NCBI RefSeq assembly: GCF_006351005.1
Contig: NZ_VENP01000006.1
Location: 1-64,000 of the forward strand
Reading direction: 5' to 3'
DNA length: 64,000 bases
Origin: Miniimonas arenae
GTDB taxonomy: Bacteria; Actinomycetota; Actinomycetes; Actinomycetales; Beutenbergiaceae
Part shown: in pieces, positions 3,126 through 63,381 of the stretch
Layout of the letters: every line of letters starts with the position of its first letter
Numbering within the stretch: position 1 is the stretch's first letter
Position numbers and translations under genes: made by a program
The notes under the pieces: model-generated
What the model saw: only the letters and a program-made list of their open reading frames with translations
Told to the model about the DNA's origin: nothing
Databases searched by the model: none

Positions 3126-3300
3126 CGACGGCGAGCCCCCCTCGCTCTCGCATCGCACCCTGCACGACGGCGAGCCCCCCTCGCTCTCGCATCGCACCCT
3201 GCGCGACGGCGAGCCCCCCTCGCTCTCGCATCGCACCCTGCGCGACGGCGAGCCTCCTCGGTCACATCGCACCCCGCGCGACGGCGAGCCCTCCCGGCCG
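3126..3300. repeat. 39-bp tandem repeat array (5 copies), non-coding
   Basis: The core cgacggcgagccc recurs at 3126, 3165, 3204, 3243 and 3279, giving periods of 39, 39, 39 and 36 bp. The rest of each unit (ctctcgcatcgcaccctgc) is nearly identical in the first three copies and decays after that. The period is divisible by three and stays open on the minus strand as a repeated 13-residue peptide, but no homology, start signal or conserved function supports a protein. The array fills the 3033-3355 gap between plsC and the GH74 remnant. Confidence 0.85.
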
Positions 3301-4582: not shown

Positions 4583-4931
4583 GGGCTGGAAATCCTCAGG
4601 GCGACGCGAGAGCGAACCGTTTCGATTGAGCGTCCCCGCCGCGCGGGTTGCGGGCGCCGTCAGGGACGCCCTGGCTCACGAGACGTTGGCACGCACAACC
4701 CTCTCCACGCGGGCAGCGGCGAGGGCCCTCGTCGGTCTCGAGATCACGCCGATGACGGACATCGCCTCCCCGACGACCGACATCGCCTCGAGAACGGACC
4801 AGGATCACCTCGCGAAAGGACCAGCATCACCTCGCGAACGACGGAGATCACCTCGCGATAGGACGAAGATCCTCTCGGGAAAGGACGGAAATCACCTCGC
4901 GGACTGTAAGAATGGCTCGCGGGGCGGTGGG
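4583..4931. repeat. Degenerate ~22-bp tandem repeats in a gene-free stretch
   Basis: Five units of the form GGACsAsSATCACCTCGCGAAm lie at 4796-4817, 4818-4839, 4840-4860, 4861-4882 and 4883-4904. Two looser copies precede them near 4756-4795. Units abut with no spacers, so this is not CRISPR. Nothing coding is seen in the 349-bp interval, which separates the GH74 remnant from the 3' end of the peroxidase-fusion gene. Confidence 0.75.
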
Positions 4932-55637: not shown

Positions 55638-57356
55638 TCAGGCGAGCAGGTCCCGCGTGGTCGGGTCCAGCAGAGCCACGACGGCGTCGCGCGCCTGGGT
55701 CGGACCCGTCGCCGCGAGCGCAGCGGCCGCCATCGCCTGGCACTGCTCGAGCGTGTGGTGGCGCAGCGCGAAGCGCACCGCGGGCACCGCGCCGAGCGAC
55801 ATCGACAGGCTCGTGATCCCGAGCCCCTTGAGGACGAGCGCCATGAGCGGGTCCGCGGCCGACTCGCCGCACACCCCCACGGGCTTGCCGAGCTCGGTCC
55901 CGGCGCGGGCCGTCGCGGCGACGAGGTCGAGCACGGCGGGCTGCCAGCGGTCGAGCAGGTCCGCGAGGTCGCCCTTGAGCCGGTCGGTGGCCATCGCGTA
56001 CTGCGCCAGGTCGTTCGTGCCGATCGAGACGAAGTCGACCTGCTCGAGGATCTCCTTCGCCCGCAGCGCGGCCGCCGGGACCTCGACCATGACGCCGACC
56101 TTGGCCAGACCCGCGGCGCGCGCGTCAGCCGCGAACTCCGCCGCCTCGGCGGGCGTCGCGATCATCGGGGCCATCACCCACGGCTGGGTCCCCGTCGCCT
56201 CGGCCGCTGCCGCGAGGGCCGTGAGCTGGTCCACCATGAGCTGCGGGTGGATCCGGCCGATCCGGTAGCCGCGCACGCCGAGGGCGGGGTTCTCCTCGCC
56301 CGGCAGCGTCGCGAACGCGAGCGGCTTGTCGGCGCCGGCGTCCAGGGTGCGCACCACGACCTTGCGACCGCCGAACGCCGCGAGGGCCGCGGTGTACTCC
56401 TTCTGCTGCGCGGCGACGGGGGGCGCCGTCTGCGCGTCGAGGAACAGCACCTCGGTCCGGAACAGCCCGCTGCCCGCGACGGTCCGCGCGTCGTCGGCGG
56501 CCGCGGCACGCTCGGCGTCCGCGGCGGTCCCGATGTTGACGAGCAAGTCGATCGGGTCGCCGTCCTTCGTCGCCCCCGGCGCGGTGTCCTCCTCGAGCGC
56601 GCGCTCGGCCTCGGTCCGCTTCGCGACGGCCTCGACCGCAGCGTCGTCGGGCGAAACCTCGAGCGTGCTGTGCCGCGCGTCCACGAGCACGCGCGTGCCG
56701 TCCTCGAGCGACGTCGCGCCCGTCACCTGCACGAGGCACGGCAGGCCGAGCTGCCCGGCGATGATCGCGGTGTGCCCGGTGGGACCGCCCAGCTCGGTGA
56801 CGATGGCCAGCACGTACCGCAGGTCCAGCGCCGCGGTGTCGGCGGGCGCGAGATCGCGCGCGACGACGACGCTCGGCTCGTGCAGGTCCGGCACGCCGGG
56901 GGCGGGTTGGCCCGCCACGACGGCGACCACGCGGTCGCGCACGGACGCCAGGTCCGTGACGCGCTCGGCCATGAGGCCGCCCGCGGCCGTGAACATGTCG
57001 ATGAAGGCGCCGACGGCGGAGCGGACGGCGGCGACCGGCGGCTTGCCGCCGGCCAGCTCGCGCTTGGCGCGCGCGGCGAGCGCGGGGTCCGCGGCGATCT
57101 GCGCCGTCGCGCCGAGCACCTCGGCGAGGCTGCCGGAGCTGCGCGCGGCGCGCGCGGACAGGTCGGCCGAGACCGTCCGGAAGGCCGCGAGCACCGTGTC
57201 GGCGAGCTCCTCCTCGGGCACGGGCACGCCGTCGCGCACCACGACGGTGTCCTCGGGCACCTCGACCGGTTCGCGCACCTGCACCACCGGGCCGACGACG
57301 GCGCGGCGGCCGACCCCGACGCCGGCGAGGACGCGCGGGCTGACGGGCGCGGTCAT
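55638..57356 (-). CDS. ptsI: PTS enzyme I (phosphoenolpyruvate-protein phosphotransferase)
   Basis: Transfers phosphate from PEP to HPr. The 572-residue product is full length. The phospho-His is in TELGGPTGHTAIIAG (consensus GGxTSHTAI, Ser replaced by Gly), with SGLFRTEVLFLD, RTLDAGADKPL, and the catalytic Cys region GVCGESAADP. ATG at 57356 overlaps the HPr stop (ATGA), so both are made together. Confidence 0.96.
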   Translation of the reverse strand: MTAPVSPRVLAGVGVGRRAVVGPVVQVREPVEVPEDTVVVRDGVPVPEEELADTVLAAFRTVSADLSARAARSSGSLAEVLGATAQIAADPALAARAKRELAGGKPPVAAVRSAVGAFIDMFTAAGGLMAERVTDLASVRDRVVAVVAGQPAPGVPDLHEPSVVVARDLAPADTAALDLRYVLAIVTELGGPTGHTAIIAGQLGLPCLVQVTGATSLEDGTRVLVDARHSTLEVSPDDAAVEAVAKRTEAERALEEDTAPGATKDGDPIDLLVNIGTAADAERAAAADDARTVAGSGLFRTEVLFLDAQTAPPVAAQQKEYTAALAAFGGRKVVVRTLDAGADKPLAFATLPGEENPALGVRGYRIGRIHPQLMVDQLTALAAAAEATGTQPWVMAPMIATPAEAAEFAADARAAGLAKVGVMVEVPAAALRAKEILEQVDFVSIGTNDLAQYAMATDRLKGDLADLLDRWQPAVLDLVAATARAGTELGKPVGVCGESAADPLMALVLKGLGITSLSMSLGAVPAVRFALRHHTLEQCQAMAAAALAATGPTQARDAVVALLDPTTRDLLA

Positions 57357-57613
57357 GACGCGTCGAGGTCGGCGGCCACGAGCTCGGCGACCTTGTCCAG
57401 GCCGGCCTCGTCGTCGCTCGTGAGCTCGACCTCCTCGCCCGCACCGATGCCGAGCGACATGAGCATGAGGATGCTCGAGGCGTCCACGCCTTCCTCGCCG
57501 ACGCGTGCGATGAGGACGGGCTCAGCCGCCTCGGCTGCGGCGGCGGCGACGAGCGAGGCGGGACGTGCGTGCAGGCCGGAGGACGACCCGACGGTGACGG
57601 TGCGAGCTGCCAT
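57353..57613 (-). CDS. ptsH: PTS phosphocarrier protein HPr
   Basis: An 86-residue HPr with the active His15 in GSSSGLHARPAS and the regulatory-site region GEEGVDASSILMLMSLG. ATG at 57613 follows AAGGAA; the frame continues upstream but homology starts here. It passes phosphate from EI to the EIIA encoded across the divergent promoter region at 58604. Confidence 0.96.
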   Translation of the reverse strand: MAARTVTVGSSSGLHARPASLVAAAAAEAAEPVLIARVGEEGVDASSILMLMSLGIGAGEEVELTSDDEAGLDKVAELVAADLDAS

Positions 57614-57709
57614 GGTGATTCCTTCACTTCCTGCCCCGTGGGGCGACTGGGCGACACCACGCCCGGACCGGCCGGAGGTGGTCGTGGGCATCTTGCCCGA
57701 TTTCCCCGG

Positions 57710-58471
57710 CTACGTCCCGGAGAGCGACATGTGGATCTGGTACCGGTCGCCCCGGTACCAGGAGGTGACGTACTCGACGGGCCGCCCGGAGGCTCGCGAC
57801 GTCCGGCGGAACACCATGAGCGGCGCCCCGACGCCGACCCCGAGCGGATCCGCGGTCGACCGCGTCGCGAGCTCGGACCACACGGTCTGCTCGGCGCCGT
57901 CGATCCGCAGGCCGTAGCCGAGCGCCATGATGCTGTAGAGGGACCCGGTCAGCTCGATGCCGCCCAGGTCCGGCAGCAGGCGGTTGCTGTAGAAGCCGCG
58001 CTCGAGCGCCATGGGCGCGCCGCCGGCCAGGCGCAGCCGCTCGATCTCCCAGACCTCCTCGTCGGGGGCGAGCCCGAGCGCGGCGGTGACCTCCACGGGT
58101 GCGGGCACGAGCCGGACGTGGCGCACGAGCGTGGACGGGACGAGGCCGCGTCGGCGCATGTCGTCGGTGAACGAGGCGAGGTGCAGCCGGGACTCCACGC
58201 GATCGGCGGCCACGAACGTGCCCTTGCCGTGCACGCGGTAGAGGCGCTGCTCCTCCACGAGCTGGCGGATCGCCTCGCGGACCGTCGCGCGGCTGACCCC
58301 GAACTCGGCCATGAGCTCGCGCTCGGAGGGGATGGCCTGGTGCGGGGCCCACTGCGAGGTCACGCGCTCGAGCAGGATCGCGCGCAGCTGTGCGTGCTTC
58401 GTGACGGGGCCGTCCACGACGGCGTCCGGCGCCCTCGCAGCATCGTCTGCCCCTTCGACCACCTCGACCAC
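57710..58471 (-). CDS. GntR/HutC-family regulator, DasR-like
   Basis: A 253-residue protein. The GntR winged helix (AIPSERELMAEFGVSRATVREAIRQLVEEQRLYRVHGKGTFVA) is followed by a UTRA effector domain (LHLASFTDDMRRRGL, EVWEIERLRLAGGAPMALERGFYS, ...YVTSWYRGDRYQIHMSL). This matches the DasR/NagR group, which senses glucosamine or GlcNAc 6-phosphate. It is divergent from the GlcNAc operon, with a DasR-type site between, and lies upstream of ptsHI on the same strand. GTG at 58471 has AGAGGGG upstream; a GTG four codons later is also possible. Confidence 0.9.
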   Translation of the reverse strand: MVEVVEGADDAARAPDAVVDGPVTKHAQLRAILLERVTSQWAPHQAIPSERELMAEFGVSRATVREAIRQLVEEQRLYRVHGKGTFVAADRVESRLHLASFTDDMRRRGLVPSTLVRHVRLVPAPVEVTAALGLAPDEEVWEIERLRLAGGAPMALERGFYSNRLLPDLGGIELTGSLYSIMALGYGLRIDGAEQTVWSELATRSTADPLGVGVGAPLMVFRRTSRASGRPVEYVTSWYRGDRYQIHMSLSGT

Positions 58472-58500: not shown

Positions 58501-58561
58501 TTGACACGTCCTCGATCTGGGACCACCATACCCGCACTGGTACGAACCAGTAAGAACCAGT
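58501..58561 (+). promoter_or_regulatory. GlcNAc operon promoter with DasR-type (dre) operator
   Basis: A consensus -35 TTGACA (58501-58506) and a weak ACCATA -10 (58525-58530) precede ACTGGTacgaACCAGT (58536-58551). This 16-bp palindrome matches the DasR-responsive element pattern A(G/C)TGGT-N4-ACCA(G/C)T. An extra ACCAGT half-site is at 58556-58561. Bound repressor would sit over the start point. Confidence 0.8.
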
Positions 58562-58603: not shown

Positions 58604-59065
58604 ATGGCCACCACCGTCCTCTCGCCCCTCGCGGGCCGCGCCGTCACCTTGGCGGACATCCCCGACCCCGTGTTCTCCCAGGGCATCGTCGGCCCGGGCG
58701 CGGCGATCGACCCGACGGCCGACGTGCTCGACGTCGTGGCACCGATCGCGGGCACCCTCGTCAAGGTGTTCCCGCACGCGTTCGTCATCGCCGGCGCCGA
58801 TGGCGTGGGCGTCCTCGTGCACCTCGGCATCGACACCGTGAAGCTCGACGGCGAGGGGTTCACGGTGCTGGTCGAGCAGGGCTCGACCGTCGCCGCCGGC
58901 GACCCCGTGGTCATCTGGGACGTGCCGGCGATCGTCGCCGCGGGCTACAGCCCCGTCTCCCCCGTGATCGTCATGGACCGCGCGGCCGAGCTCGTCGCGG
59001 TCGCCGACGGGGTCGAGGGTGCGGCGACGCAGCCCGGCCAGCCCCTGCTCACCGTCTCGGCCTGA
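58604..59065 (+). CDS. crr: PTS glucose/GlcNAc-type EIIA component
   Basis: A 153-residue EIIA-Glc-fold protein with the two active-site histidines H58 (FPHAFVI) and H73 (VLVHLGIDTVKLDGEGF). It accepts phosphate from HPr and gives it to the EIIB domain of the neighbouring EIICB. It is the first gene of the GlcNAc operon, just after the DasR-type site, with GAGGAG upstream of the ATG. Confidence 0.94.
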   Translation: MATTVLSPLAGRAVTLADIPDPVFSQGIVGPGAAIDPTADVLDVVAPIAGTLVKVFPHAFVIAGADGVGVLVHLGIDTVKLDGEGFTVLVEQGSTVAAGDPVVIWDVPAIVAAGYSPVSPVIVMDRAAELVAVADGVEGAATQPGQPLLTVSA

Positions 59066-59072
59066 CCGCCGC

Positions 59073-59215
59073 GCTGCCGTTCGACCGCTGCCGTTCGACC
59101 GCTGCCGTTCGACCGGCCGACCGCTGTCGGTCGACCGGCCGACCGCTGTCGGTCGACCGGCCGATCCCTGCCGGTCGACCGCCGACCGCTGACCTCTGAC
59201 CTCTGACTTCTGATC
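59073..59215. repeat. Tandem repeat cascade with changing period upstream of the EIICB gene
   Basis: Three exact 14-bp units (gctgccgttcgacc at 59073, 59087, 59101) pass into 22-bp units (gctgtcggtcgacc + ggccgacc at 59123 and 59145, then a shorter variant), and then into 7-bp units (tgacctc) near 59190-59212. The segments contain self-complementary GGTCGACC blocks that could form hairpins. It occupies most of the 175-bp EIIA-EIICB gap. Confidence 0.85.
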
Positions 59216-59240
59216 CTCCGATCTCGAGGGAGACCGTTCC

Positions 59241-60329
59241 ATGACCACCGCCACCGCGACCCCCGCGAAGCCGGCGAAGAAGCCGCTCCGCATCCCGGGG
59301 TTCACGGGCCTCGGCGAGTTCATCACCGGTGCCGGCGCGTTCGGTGCGTTCGTGTACGGCTTCGCGAACCGCATGCTGATCCCGGTCGGCCTGCACCACA
59401 TCGTGAACTCCTACGTGTGGTTCCTCTACGGCTCCTACGACGGCCCCAACGGCGTCGTGACCGGTGAGCTCACGCGGTTCGCCGCGGGCGACCCGACGGC
59501 GGGCGCGCTCACCTCGGGCTTCTACCCGGTGCTCATGTTCGGCCTGCCCGCCGCAGCGCTCGCGATGATCCACCTCGCCGACAAGCGGCAGCGCAAGACG
59601 GCGATCGGCATCCTCGGCGCGGCCGGCATCACCGCGTTCCTCACCGGCGTGACCGAGCCGCTGGAGTTCGCGTTCATGTTCGTCGCGTTCCCGCTGTACG
59701 TGGTGCACGCGATCCTCACCGGCCTGTCGCTGGCGATCGCCTACACGCTCGACATCCACCTCGGGTTCTCGTTCTCCGCCGGCCTCATCGACCTGCTGCT
59801 CTACGGCACGGCGCCGGCCGCGAAGAACATCCCGCTGCTGCTCATCATGGGCGTCGTCTACTTCTTCGTGTACTACGTCATCTTCCGCCTCGTCGTGAAG
59901 CGCTGGAACCTGCGCACGCCGGGCCGTGAGCCGGAGGCGGAGTTCGAGGCCGAGCAGGCCGAGAACAGCTCGGAGGAGCTCGTCTCGACCACCGTGGCGT
60001 CCACACCGGCGGCAGCCGGGGCGGTCTCCAGCGAGGGGGCCGTCGGCGCAAGCGCCGCCGCAGCGGCCGCAGCCGCCACGACGGCGAGCAGCGCGACGGC
60101 GAGCAAGGCCGAGCAGCTCATCGCAGCCTTCGGGGGTCGCGAGAACCTCGTCAACGTCGACGCCTGCATCACGCGTCTGCGGATGGAGGTCGCCGACAAG
60201 GACAAGGTCGACAAGGCGCGTCTCAAGGCGCTCGGCGCGGCCGGCGTGATCGAGGTGGGCAACAACGTCCAGGCGGTTTTCGGCACGCAGGCCGAGGCCC
60301 TCAAGAACGACATCAAGGACGTGCTCTAG
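59241..60329 (+). CDS. PTS N-acetylglucosamine-type EIICB, EIIC domain lacking its N-terminal half
   Basis: A 362-residue protein. A NagE-like start (MTTATATPAKPAKK) is joined directly to the second half of an EIIC-Glc/GlcNAc domain: FGAFVYGFANRMLIPVGLHHIVNSYVWF, SGFYPVLMFGLPAAALAMIH, TGVTEPLEFAFMF (sugar-site Glu), HLGFSFSAGLIDLLLYG. A linker (Glu/Ser, then Ala-rich) leads to an EIIB domain with phospho-Cys309 in NVDACITRL. Normal EIIC domains have ~400 residues; here the first ~170-190, with the early TM helices, are missing. AGGGAGA precedes the ATG. It may be a deletion mutant or an assembly collapse; see findings. Confidence 0.85.
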   Translation: MTTATATPAKPAKKPLRIPGFTGLGEFITGAGAFGAFVYGFANRMLIPVGLHHIVNSYVWFLYGSYDGPNGVVTGELTRFAAGDPTAGALTSGFYPVLMFGLPAAALAMIHLADKRQRKTAIGILGAAGITAFLTGVTEPLEFAFMFVAFPLYVVHAILTGLSLAIAYTLDIHLGFSFSAGLIDLLLYGTAPAAKNIPLLLIMGVVYFFVYYVIFRLVVKRWNLRTPGREPEAEFEAEQAENSSEELVSTTVASTPAAAGAVSSEGAVGASAAAAAAAATTASSATASKAEQLIAAFGGRENLVNVDACITRLRMEVADKDKVDKARLKALGAAGVIEVGNNVQAVFGTQAEALKNDIKDVL

Positions 60330-61115
60330 ATGGAGGTCATCGTCGTCGAGCGGCCCGAGGACGCCGCGCCCATCGTCGCGGACGCGTACTCCCGCCTGCT
60401 CGCCGCCAAGCCGGACGCCGTCCTCGGCCTGGCCACCGGGTCGACCCCGCTCGGCGTGTACGACGAGCTCGTCCGGCGGTACGAGGCCGGTGAGCTCACG
60501 TTCGCGAGCGCCCGCGCGTTCCTGCTGGACGAGTACGTCGGGCTCCCGGCCGACCACCCCGAGCGCTACCGCGCGTTCATCGAGCGCGTCTTCACGGGGC
60601 GCGTGGACCTGCGTCCGGACGCCGTCCAAGGACCCGACGGCCTCGCCGAGGACCTGTCGGCGGCCGGCGTGGCGTACGACGCCGCGATCCGGGAGGCCGG
60701 CGGGATCGACCTCCAGATCCTCGGGATCGGGGCTGACGGGCACCTCGCGTTCAACATGCCGATGTCGAGCCTGACCAGCCGCACCCGGCTCAAGACGCTC
60801 ACCCCGAAGACCCGGCTGGACAACGCGCGGTTCTTCGACGACGACCTGGACCAGGTGCCGCGGCACTGCCTCACCCAGGGGCTCGGCACGATCATGGAGT
60901 CCCGGCACGCCGTGATGCTCGGCTTCGGACTGAACAAGGCCCAGGCCGTGCGGGAGTGCGTGGAGGGCGCCGTCTCGGCGCGCTGGCCGGCGTCGGTCCT
61001 GCAGCTGCACCCGCACGCCACGGTCGTCGTCGACGCCGAGGCCGCCAGCCAGCTCACGTTCCGCGAGTACTACCGCACCACGTACGACGGCAAGCCCGAC
61101 TGGCAGGGCATCTGA
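60330..61115 (+). CDS. nagB: Glucosamine-6-phosphate deaminase (variant active site)
   Basis: Converts glucosamine 6-phosphate to fructose 6-phosphate and ammonia. The 261-residue protein follows NagB: GLATGSTPLGVY, FLLDEYVGLPADHPERYR, ILGIGADGHLAFN, SRTRLKTLT, TQGLGTIMESRHAVML. The catalytic D136 and H138 are present, but the Glu expected five residues after the His (E. coli Glu148, in the NEPGSSL block) is Met143 (NMPMSSL). It starts immediately after the EIICB stop and overlaps nagA by one base. Confidence 0.92.
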   Translation: MEVIVVERPEDAAPIVADAYSRLLAAKPDAVLGLATGSTPLGVYDELVRRYEAGELTFASARAFLLDEYVGLPADHPERYRAFIERVFTGRVDLRPDAVQGPDGLAEDLSAAGVAYDAAIREAGGIDLQILGIGADGHLAFNMPMSSLTSRTRLKTLTPKTRLDNARFFDDDLDQVPRHCLTQGLGTIMESRHAVMLGFGLNKAQAVRECVEGAVSARWPASVLQLHPHATVVVDAEAASQLTFREYYRTTYDGKPDWQGI

Positions 61116-62338
61116 TGGTCACGATCCGCGCGGGGCGCGTGCTGCTCGACGGAGCGTTCACGGGCCCCGCGCAGCTCGCCGTCGAGGGCGGCCGGATCGC
61201 GTCGGTGACCGTGGGCGAGGCGCTCGCCGGCGCGCCCGCTGCCGACGTCGACCTCGGCGCGGCGACCCTGACGCCCGGCCTTATGGACCTGCAGATCAAC
61301 GGCTCGTTCGGCGCGGACTTCGCCGACGCGACCCCCGAGCAGTGGACGCGCGTGCTCGGCGGGCTCGCCGCGCGCGGCGTCACGGCGGTCCAGCCGACGA
61401 TCATCACGGCACCGCTCGCCCAGCTCGGGGGCGCGTTCGCCCGGGTGCGGCAGGCGCGGGACGAGAACGCGGGCGGCCCCGCGGCGCGGGTGCTGGGCGC
61501 GCACCTCGAGGGGCCGTTCATCTCCCCCGCCCGCAAGGGGACGCACCGCCCGGACTGGATGGTCGAGCCGAGCCCGGAGCACCTCGACGTGCTCCTGGCG
61601 CACCCGGCCACGCGGGAGGTCCTCACGACGCTCACGCTGGCCCCGGAGCTGCCGCACGCCCTCGACGCCACGCGGCGCCTCGTGGCCGAGGGCGTCGTCG
61701 TCGCCGTGGGGCACAGCGACGCCACGGCCGCGCAGGTGCACGCCGCGGCCGACGCGGGCGCCACGATGACGACCCACGTGTTCAACGCGCAGCGCCCGCT
61801 CGGCCACCGCGAGCCCGGTGTCCCGGGGGCGGTGCTCACGGACGAGCGGTTCTACGTCGGCACGATCGTGGACGGTCAGCACCTGGACCCGAGCGTCGTG
61901 CGGCTCGTCTACACGGCCGCAGCGGGCCGCGCGATCGCCGTCACCGACGCGATCGTCACGGCCGGGCTGCCCAACCACACGTGGCTGCAGTTCGGCGGCC
62001 GACCGGTGGCGAACGACGACACCGGCCTCGGCCGGCGGGAGGACGGCACGATCACGGGCGCCGGCATCGTCCTGGACGAGGGCGTGCGCCGCATGGTGGC
62101 CTCCGGGCTCGACGCCGCCACGGTGCTCGCCTCGTGCACCGAGGTGGCCGCCCGCTCGCTCGGTCGCGCCGACCTGGGACGCCTCGCGGTCGGGGCGCAC
62201 GCCGACCTCGTCGCGTGGGACTCCTCGTGGCACCCGGTTCGCGTGTGGGTCGGTGGGAGCGAGATCGCCGCGAGCGTCGGGACCGACGCCGTGTCCGGTT
62301 GGACGACGAGCGCGGGCGCGAGCACAATCCGGGCATGA
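61115..62338 (+). CDS. nagA: N-acetylglucosamine-6-phosphate deacetylase
   Basis: Removes acetate from GlcNAc 6-phosphate. The 407-residue amidohydrolase has DLQINGSFGADF, the metal ligands in GAHLEGPFISPARKG (Glu), VAVGHSDAT (His), THVFNAQRPL (His), and the catalytic Asp in AVTDAIV. All key residues are present. Start ATG at 61115 (TGATG with the nagB stop). Its stop overlaps the next ATG. Confidence 0.95.
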   Translation: MVTIRAGRVLLDGAFTGPAQLAVEGGRIASVTVGEALAGAPAADVDLGAATLTPGLMDLQINGSFGADFADATPEQWTRVLGGLAARGVTAVQPTIITAPLAQLGGAFARVRQARDENAGGPAARVLGAHLEGPFISPARKGTHRPDWMVEPSPEHLDVLLAHPATREVLTTLTLAPELPHALDATRRLVAEGVVVAVGHSDATAAQVHAAADAGATMTTHVFNAQRPLGHREPGVPGAVLTDERFYVGTIVDGQHLDPSVVRLVYTAAAGRAIAVTDAIVTAGLPNHTWLQFGGRPVANDDTGLGRREDGTITGAGIVLDEGVRRMVASGLDAATVLASCTEVAARSLGRADLGRLAVGAHADLVAWDSSWHPVRVWVGGSEIAASVGTDAVSGWTTSAGASTIRA

Positions 62339-63381
62339 CTCACCCCGCGGGTTGGTACCCGGACGGTTCCGGACGTCAGCGCTGGTGGGACGGCACGGCG
62401 TGGACGGAGGACACGCGCGACGCCGGCCAGCCCGCGAGCGCCGGGGCGGGCACGACGGCGGGCACCGCCTGGCAGCCCGGCGGCACCTCCGCGCCCGGCA
62501 CCGGCGCGACGGCGAGCACCGCCTGGCAGCCCGGCGCCACCTCCGCACCCGGTACCGGTGCGACGGCGAGCACCGCCTGGCAGCCCGGCGGCACCTCCGC
62601 GCCCGGCGTCTCCGCATCCGGCACCGGCGCGACGACGAGCACCGCCTGGCAGCCCGGCGGCACCTCCGCGCCCGGCGGCCCGGTCGTGTCGGCCCCGGGT
62701 GCCCCGGGCGGCCAGTCCGGTGCCTCGGGTCAGCCGACGTCCGCCGGCTACGGCCGGATCCCCTCGGTCGGACGTCCCGACGGGTACGGCCCGGGCGGCT
62801 ACCAGGCTCCGGGCACGCCCGCGTACGGTCAGGCGACGGTGAGCCCGGCCTACGGCCAACCCGGCGCTCCCGCCTACGGCCGGCCGGGAGTTGCGCCCGC
62901 CCAGCCCGGCGCCCCGTACGGTGGCGCGCCGGGCGGCGCCCCGCGCAGGCGCACCGGCGTGGTGGTGGGCATCATCGTCGCCGTCGTGGTCCTGATCGTC
63001 GCCATCCTCGCGGTCGTGTTGTTCTCGGTCCGGTCCCAGACGGCCGGCCCGCTCCACGCGGTCACCGACTACAACGACGCCTGGGACGCCGAGGACTGCC
63101 AGCTCCTCGTCTCGTCCGTGACCAACGAGTTCTGGCAGTCCACGTGGGCGAGCTGCGACTCGTTCGAGGCCGACGCCGCGGAGTTCAACGCCAGCCTGCA
63201 GAACGGTGCCGACTCCTACGAGTGGCGGGCGACCTCGACGAGCGTCTCGGGCTCGACGGCCACCGTGGAGGTCGCGGAGAGCTGGACGGACTCCTCCGGC
63301 CAGCATCAGAGCGCCGACGTTACGTTCAACCTCGTCAAGCAGGGCGGCGGCTGGCTCGTGGACTCGGTCACCAGCGACTGA
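62335..63381 (+). CDS. DUF2510 domain membrane protein with 18-residue repeats
   Basis: A 348-residue protein. The N-terminal DUF2510 motif PAGWYPDGSGRQRWWDGTAWT is followed by four Thr/Gly/Pro-rich repeats, a Tyr/Gly/Pro-rich stretch (AYGQPGAPAYGRPG), one TM (GVVVGIIVAVVVLIVAILAVVLFSV), and an outer DUF4878-like domain (VTDYNDAWDAEDCQLLVSSVTNEFW...GGGWLVDSV) with two Cys (C-x16-C) that could form a disulfide. ATG overlaps the nagA stop. A link to GlcNAc use is not known. Confidence 0.85.
   Translation: MTHPAGWYPDGSGRQRWWDGTAWTEDTRDAGQPASAGAGTTAGTAWQPGGTSAPGTGATASTAWQPGATSAPGTGATASTAWQPGGTSAPGVSASGTGATTSTAWQPGGTSAPGGPVVSAPGAPGGQSGASGQPTSAGYGRIPSVGRPDGYGPGGYQAPGTPAYGQATVSPAYGQPGAPAYGRPGVAPAQPGAPYGGAPGGAPRRRTGVVVGIIVAVVVLIVAILAVVLFSVRSQTAGPLHAVTDYNDAWDAEDCQLLVSSVTNEFWQSTWASCDSFEADAAEFNASLQNGADSYEWRATSTSVSGSTATVEVAESWTDSSGQHQSADVTFNLVKQGGGWLVDSVTSD
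62467..62700 (+). repeat. 54-bp in-frame tandem repeats in the DUF2510 gene
   Basis: The unit gcctggcagcccggc begins at 62467, 62521, 62575 and 62644, with periods of 54, 54 and 69 (54 plus a 15-bp insertion). Each encodes AWQPGGTSAPGTGATAST-like residues outside the folded domains. Confidence 0.85.

Follow-up and report, generated by a model that had tools for sequence, protein, structure and literature searches.

The question raised by this locus was whether a phosphotransferase permease without the N-terminal half of its EIIC is a working minimal transporter, one part of a split transporter, a broken gene or a product of the assembly. The locus lies in a window of 64,000 nucleotides (the whole stretch of DNA that was analysed) from Miniimonas arenae. 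The source assembly was a draft of 3.4 Mb in 148 contigs with 99.7% completeness. The features of the locus were as follows, in window positions.

55638-57356, reverse strand: EI (PtsI) with three domains (Pfam)
57353-57691, reverse strand: HPr (Pfam)
57710-58429, reverse strand: divergent GntR/UTRA regulator (DasR-like), start codon approximate (alignment)
58536-58551, no strand: perfect 16-bp inverted repeat (read directly)
58604-59065, forward strand: complete EIIA (PTS_EIIA_1; Pfam)
59241-60329, forward strand: EIIC-EIIB of the GlcNAc/Glc PTS family, 362 aa, from which 179 internal codons are lost in frame
59241-59303, forward strand: kept N-terminal leader of 21 codons, MTTATATPAKPAKKPLRIPGF, with 4 K/R and 0 D/E
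59303-59304, forward strand: deletion junction LRIPGF/TGLGEF, at which 537 bp of the relatives are absent
59304-59936, forward strand: complete EIIC transport domain, preceded by the kept remainder of the amphipathic helix; this stretch is equivalent to PtsG ~180-386 (PtsG limits from PMC11393339)
60099-60326, forward strand: intact EIIB domain, whose phosphorylated Cys lies in DACITRLR
60330-61115, forward strand: complete NagB, glucosamine-6-phosphate deaminase (Pfam/NCBIfam, relatives)
61115-62338, forward strand: NagA-type amidohydrolase, colinear with relatives (alignment)

The 362-residue open reading frame at 59241-60329 started with MTTATATPAKPAKKPLRIPGFTGLGEFITG. Along the short protein, a leader ending in LRIPGF led directly into the C-terminal part of PTS EIIC (TGLGEFITGAG...), and an alanine-rich linker then connected this part to EIIB. 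In Pfam, the match to PTS_EIIC was confined to profile positions 183-319 of 319, and the match to EIIB was full length. The top NCBIfam model was TIGR01998 (GlcNAc IIBC), for which the EIIC match began at position 173 of 475. Its score of 356 bits was below the curated cut-off of 553, and the full-length relative L005 was also below it, with 514. The sugar-binding motifs GLHHI and TEPLEF of the EIIC transport domain were present. The transport domain, the EIIB Cys and the operon context were those of a GlcNAc/Glc-family EIICB (NagE type), except that the scaffold was missing.

The short form was compared with relatives from genera other than Miniimonas, including four (L005-L008) with a matching operon. 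All four carried a full-length EIICB in the order EIIA-EIICB-NagB-NagA. In the alignment, the loss relative to these four was exactly 179 codons, which corresponded to 537 bp, and it was in frame. The part kept in Miniimonas was found at 93 loci, two of which were the window itself; the missing segment was present in all of the other 91 and abutted the kept part at equal spacing in 89 of them. This segment was nearly invariant in the relatives. For a wider survey with TIGR01998, 248 genomes were sampled from the order. The GlcNAc-type family was present in 64 of them, and an EIIC match starting at position 173 and then followed by EIIB was found in Miniimonas only. In the same survey, a 184-residue frame at G165:C1:2038652-2039140 matched only positions 311-474 of TIGR01998 and is possibly a second broken EIICB.

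The neighbouring genes were intact. EI, HPr, EIIA and NagB were complete by Pfam or NCBIfam, and the alignments of GntR, NagB and NagA with relatives showed no gap comparable to that of EIICB. The EIIA, NagB and NagA context of a NagE-type EIICB was present. The inverted repeat ACTGGTACGAACCAGT with 6-bp arms was located between the divergent GntR/UTRA regulator and EIIA. Both of its half-sites, as judged by eye, resemble DasR operator half-sites. No DasR-type consensus was found with 3 mismatches, and no Rfam matches were found at the locus. The gap between EIIA and EIICB was a degenerate tandem array at 59064-59218 with 14- and 22-bp units, which occurred once in the genome. This gap was longer than that of the relatives (roughly 40-100 bp). 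Tandem arrays were also observed at 477-892, 3126-3291, 4773-4901 and 62449-62677, with unit lengths of 22-108 bp. The array at 62449-62677 lay within an open frame that repeats units rich in Gly/Pro/Ala.

The lost residues corresponded to residues ~7-179 of E. coli PtsG in the alignment. In PtsG, the scaffold domain at 4-173 contains TM1-5 and the dimer interface, the hinge P173/P174 is followed by an amphipathic helix, and the transport domain spans 191-386 (PMC11393339, PMC11930441). The scaffold is the part against which the transport domain moves, and the gate residue F146' is supplied by the cytoplasmic loop of the partner (PMC11393339). This mapping meant that the deletion takes out the scaffold domain together with the hinge and continues into the first part of the amphipathic helix, and that the substrate-binding transport domain stays. 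The equivalent of the loop with the gate residue was inside the lost segment. The N- and C-termini of PtsG are both cytosolic (PMC11393339, PMC11930441). Since the five lost spans are an odd number, the topology of the remaining EIIC-EIIB would also be upset. With the charged leader (4 K/R, 0 D/E) inside, the remaining helices would not easily keep their usual orientation. The AlphaFold2 model of the short protein was poor, with a mean pLDDT of 64; EIIB was above 90 and the membrane part was mostly at 45-75. The model of a full-length relative, used as a control, was likewise poor, with a mean pLDDT of 57. As a rough check only, the helix positions of this poor control model placed five predicted membrane helices within the lost segment.

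The kept parts showed little change. In the kept EIIC, 1 of 78 near-invariant sites was changed, and in EIIB 0 of 25, which was similar to intact relatives. This retention of conserved sites suggested that the loss was recent at the scale of the compared genera, or that constraint still acts on the short protein. Recency appeared to be the simpler reading because the junction was common to no relative. These results agreed with most of the preliminary description. It had stated that the EIIC lacks its N-terminal half, that roughly 170-190 residues of TM helices are skipped, that the rest of EIIC and the EIIB are intact, and that the operon is otherwise neat. The Pfam and TIGR01998 matches, the 91 loci that keep the segment, the count of 179 residues, the PtsG mapping with TM1-5, the unchanged sites with a full-length EIIB, and the complete EIIA and NagB with a colinear NagA all bore this out. 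The leader was NagE-like as described, but its length was nearer 20 than 14 residues. The check on homologues at the locus, which were full length in relatives of other genera, indicated that the short form is not lineage-wide.

The breakpoints were then considered as traces of a mechanism. The bases before the two breakpoints were alike at 7/9 positions in L005 and L007, at 6/9 in L006 and at 5/9 in L008. In L005 and L007, a match of 7/9 was reached by ~0.5% of the site pairs in the same gene. This likeness, which was read in relatives and not in the ancestor, fits a slippage-type deletion and is not proof of one. We consider it probable that a recent in-frame deletion of 537 bp removed the scaffold domain from the only GlcNAc-type EIICB of the genome and left a transporter that is most likely inactive. 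The 537 bp were probably deleted when short stretches of similar sequence, which in relatives are of the CCGGxTTC / CCGGxCTC kind, mispaired by slippage. One of these stretches would code for the residues immediately ahead of TM1 and the other for the beginning of the amphipathic helix. The resulting protein would retain the substrate-binding transport domain and EIIB, and it would lack both the dimer interface and the scaffold against which the transport domain slides. With five spans gone, the remainder probably could not take up the usual membrane orientation, in which the leader and EIIB are both on the inside. Without scaffold and dimer interface, and with an upset topology, the transporter would therefore most likely be inactive in an otherwise intact operon. 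Some points counted against this deletion. The breakpoints near the domain limits and the kept frame were neater than a random loss requires, the breakpoint likeness was weaker in L006 and L008, and the genome was a 148-contig draft.

The main competitor of this deletion was an error of the assembly or the library. The 537 bp might have been lost through chimeric molecules, a minority deletion variant or a mixed population, so that the deletion is absent from the organism or present in only some cells. We regard this as possible and clearly less probable than a real deletion. It agreed with the draft state of the genome in 148 contigs, the occurrence of the junction in one genome only, the kept parts without decay and the tandem array ~90 bp upstream of the junction. 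However, an ordinary repeat collapse by the assembler was a poor fit because only a long repeat would cause one, and no more than 7/9 bases are alike at the breakpoints in relatives. The missing segment was also on no other contig, the neighbour genes were complete and colinear, and the reading frame was exactly preserved. The search for the segment bore on another alternative as well, in which a second gene encodes the missing half and the protein is assembled from two pieces. With the segment of a relative as the protein query, no copy was found in the Miniimonas assembly (best E 0.32), and the EIIC scaffold domain (TM1-5) was absent from the rest of the genome as it was from the short protein. 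The sole other EIIC of the genome, on contig C59, was complete and of the fructose type. Therefore, no gene in the assembly provides the missing half. An EIIB of ~76 residues without EIIC was found on contig C67 (L002:1477-1728, which is G000:C67:19717-19944), and it was ruled out as a partner of the short EIICB since it is EIIB only. This lone EIIB adjoined a gene that was judged globin-like by eye. Almost every genome of the family had similar EIIB-only matches, and most of these genomes were without a GlcNAc-type EIIC. The suggestion that another gene supplies the missing part was thus unsupported, no point was found in its favour, and a split EIIC is very improbable.

The other alternative was a selected, working EIICB without scaffold, in the role of a minimal PTS permease or of an EIIB phosphorelay or regulator tethered to the membrane. 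The in-frame loss, whose ends were almost exactly the domain limits, and the conservation of the transport domain, EIIB and the operon were in line with this. However, recency explains the conservation equally well, and the junction was in no second genome among the 91 loci and the 248-genome sample. According to the PtsG structures, the dimer interface, the counterpart of the transport domain and the gate residue F146' of the partner are all in the lost part. The absence of five spans together with the positive leader (4 K/R, 0 D/E) makes the usual topology hard to keep. We consider a functional short form unlikely, although less so than a split EIIC. A literature search for truncated EIIC returned nothing relevant. 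The preliminary description had proposed that a deletion created a minimal EIIC. The deletion was the best-supported part of this proposal, given the full-length relatives and the breakpoint repeat, but a working minimal EIIC is unlikely with the scaffold and five spans gone.

With the recent deletion as the preferred reading, the EIICB gene is a broken allele of an ordinary kind, and its breakpoint is neat. A plain deletion would mean that the strain is probably without PTS uptake of GlcNAc, contrary to what the annotation suggests. In the Miniimonas genome, matches to an NgcE-type ABC importer were below the family cut-off only, which gives no firm case for a second GlcNAc importer. The locus would be a surprise only if an EIIC without scaffold works. 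The short gene is also a natural construct of transport domain and EIIB with clean ends, which might be put to the test in the laboratory.

Two known systems were used for comparison. Full-length relatives aligned over all of E. coli PtsG (IICB-Glc; PDB 8QSR). The kept part of Miniimonas aligned with the PtsG transport domain and EIIB, and the equivalent of ~7-179 was missing; this region comprises the scaffold, the proline hinge and the first part of the amphipathic helix. The other system was the NagE/TIGR01998 EIICB of actinobacterial EIIA-EIICB-nagB-nagA operons, where the shared part of the Miniimonas protein was 73-80% identical to its nearest relatives. Miniimonas shared with these NagE-type operons the gene order, an EIIB with Cys and the transport-domain motifs. 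It differed in that its EIICB was below the family cut-off, as was the full-length L005, and was without the 179-residue scaffold domain.
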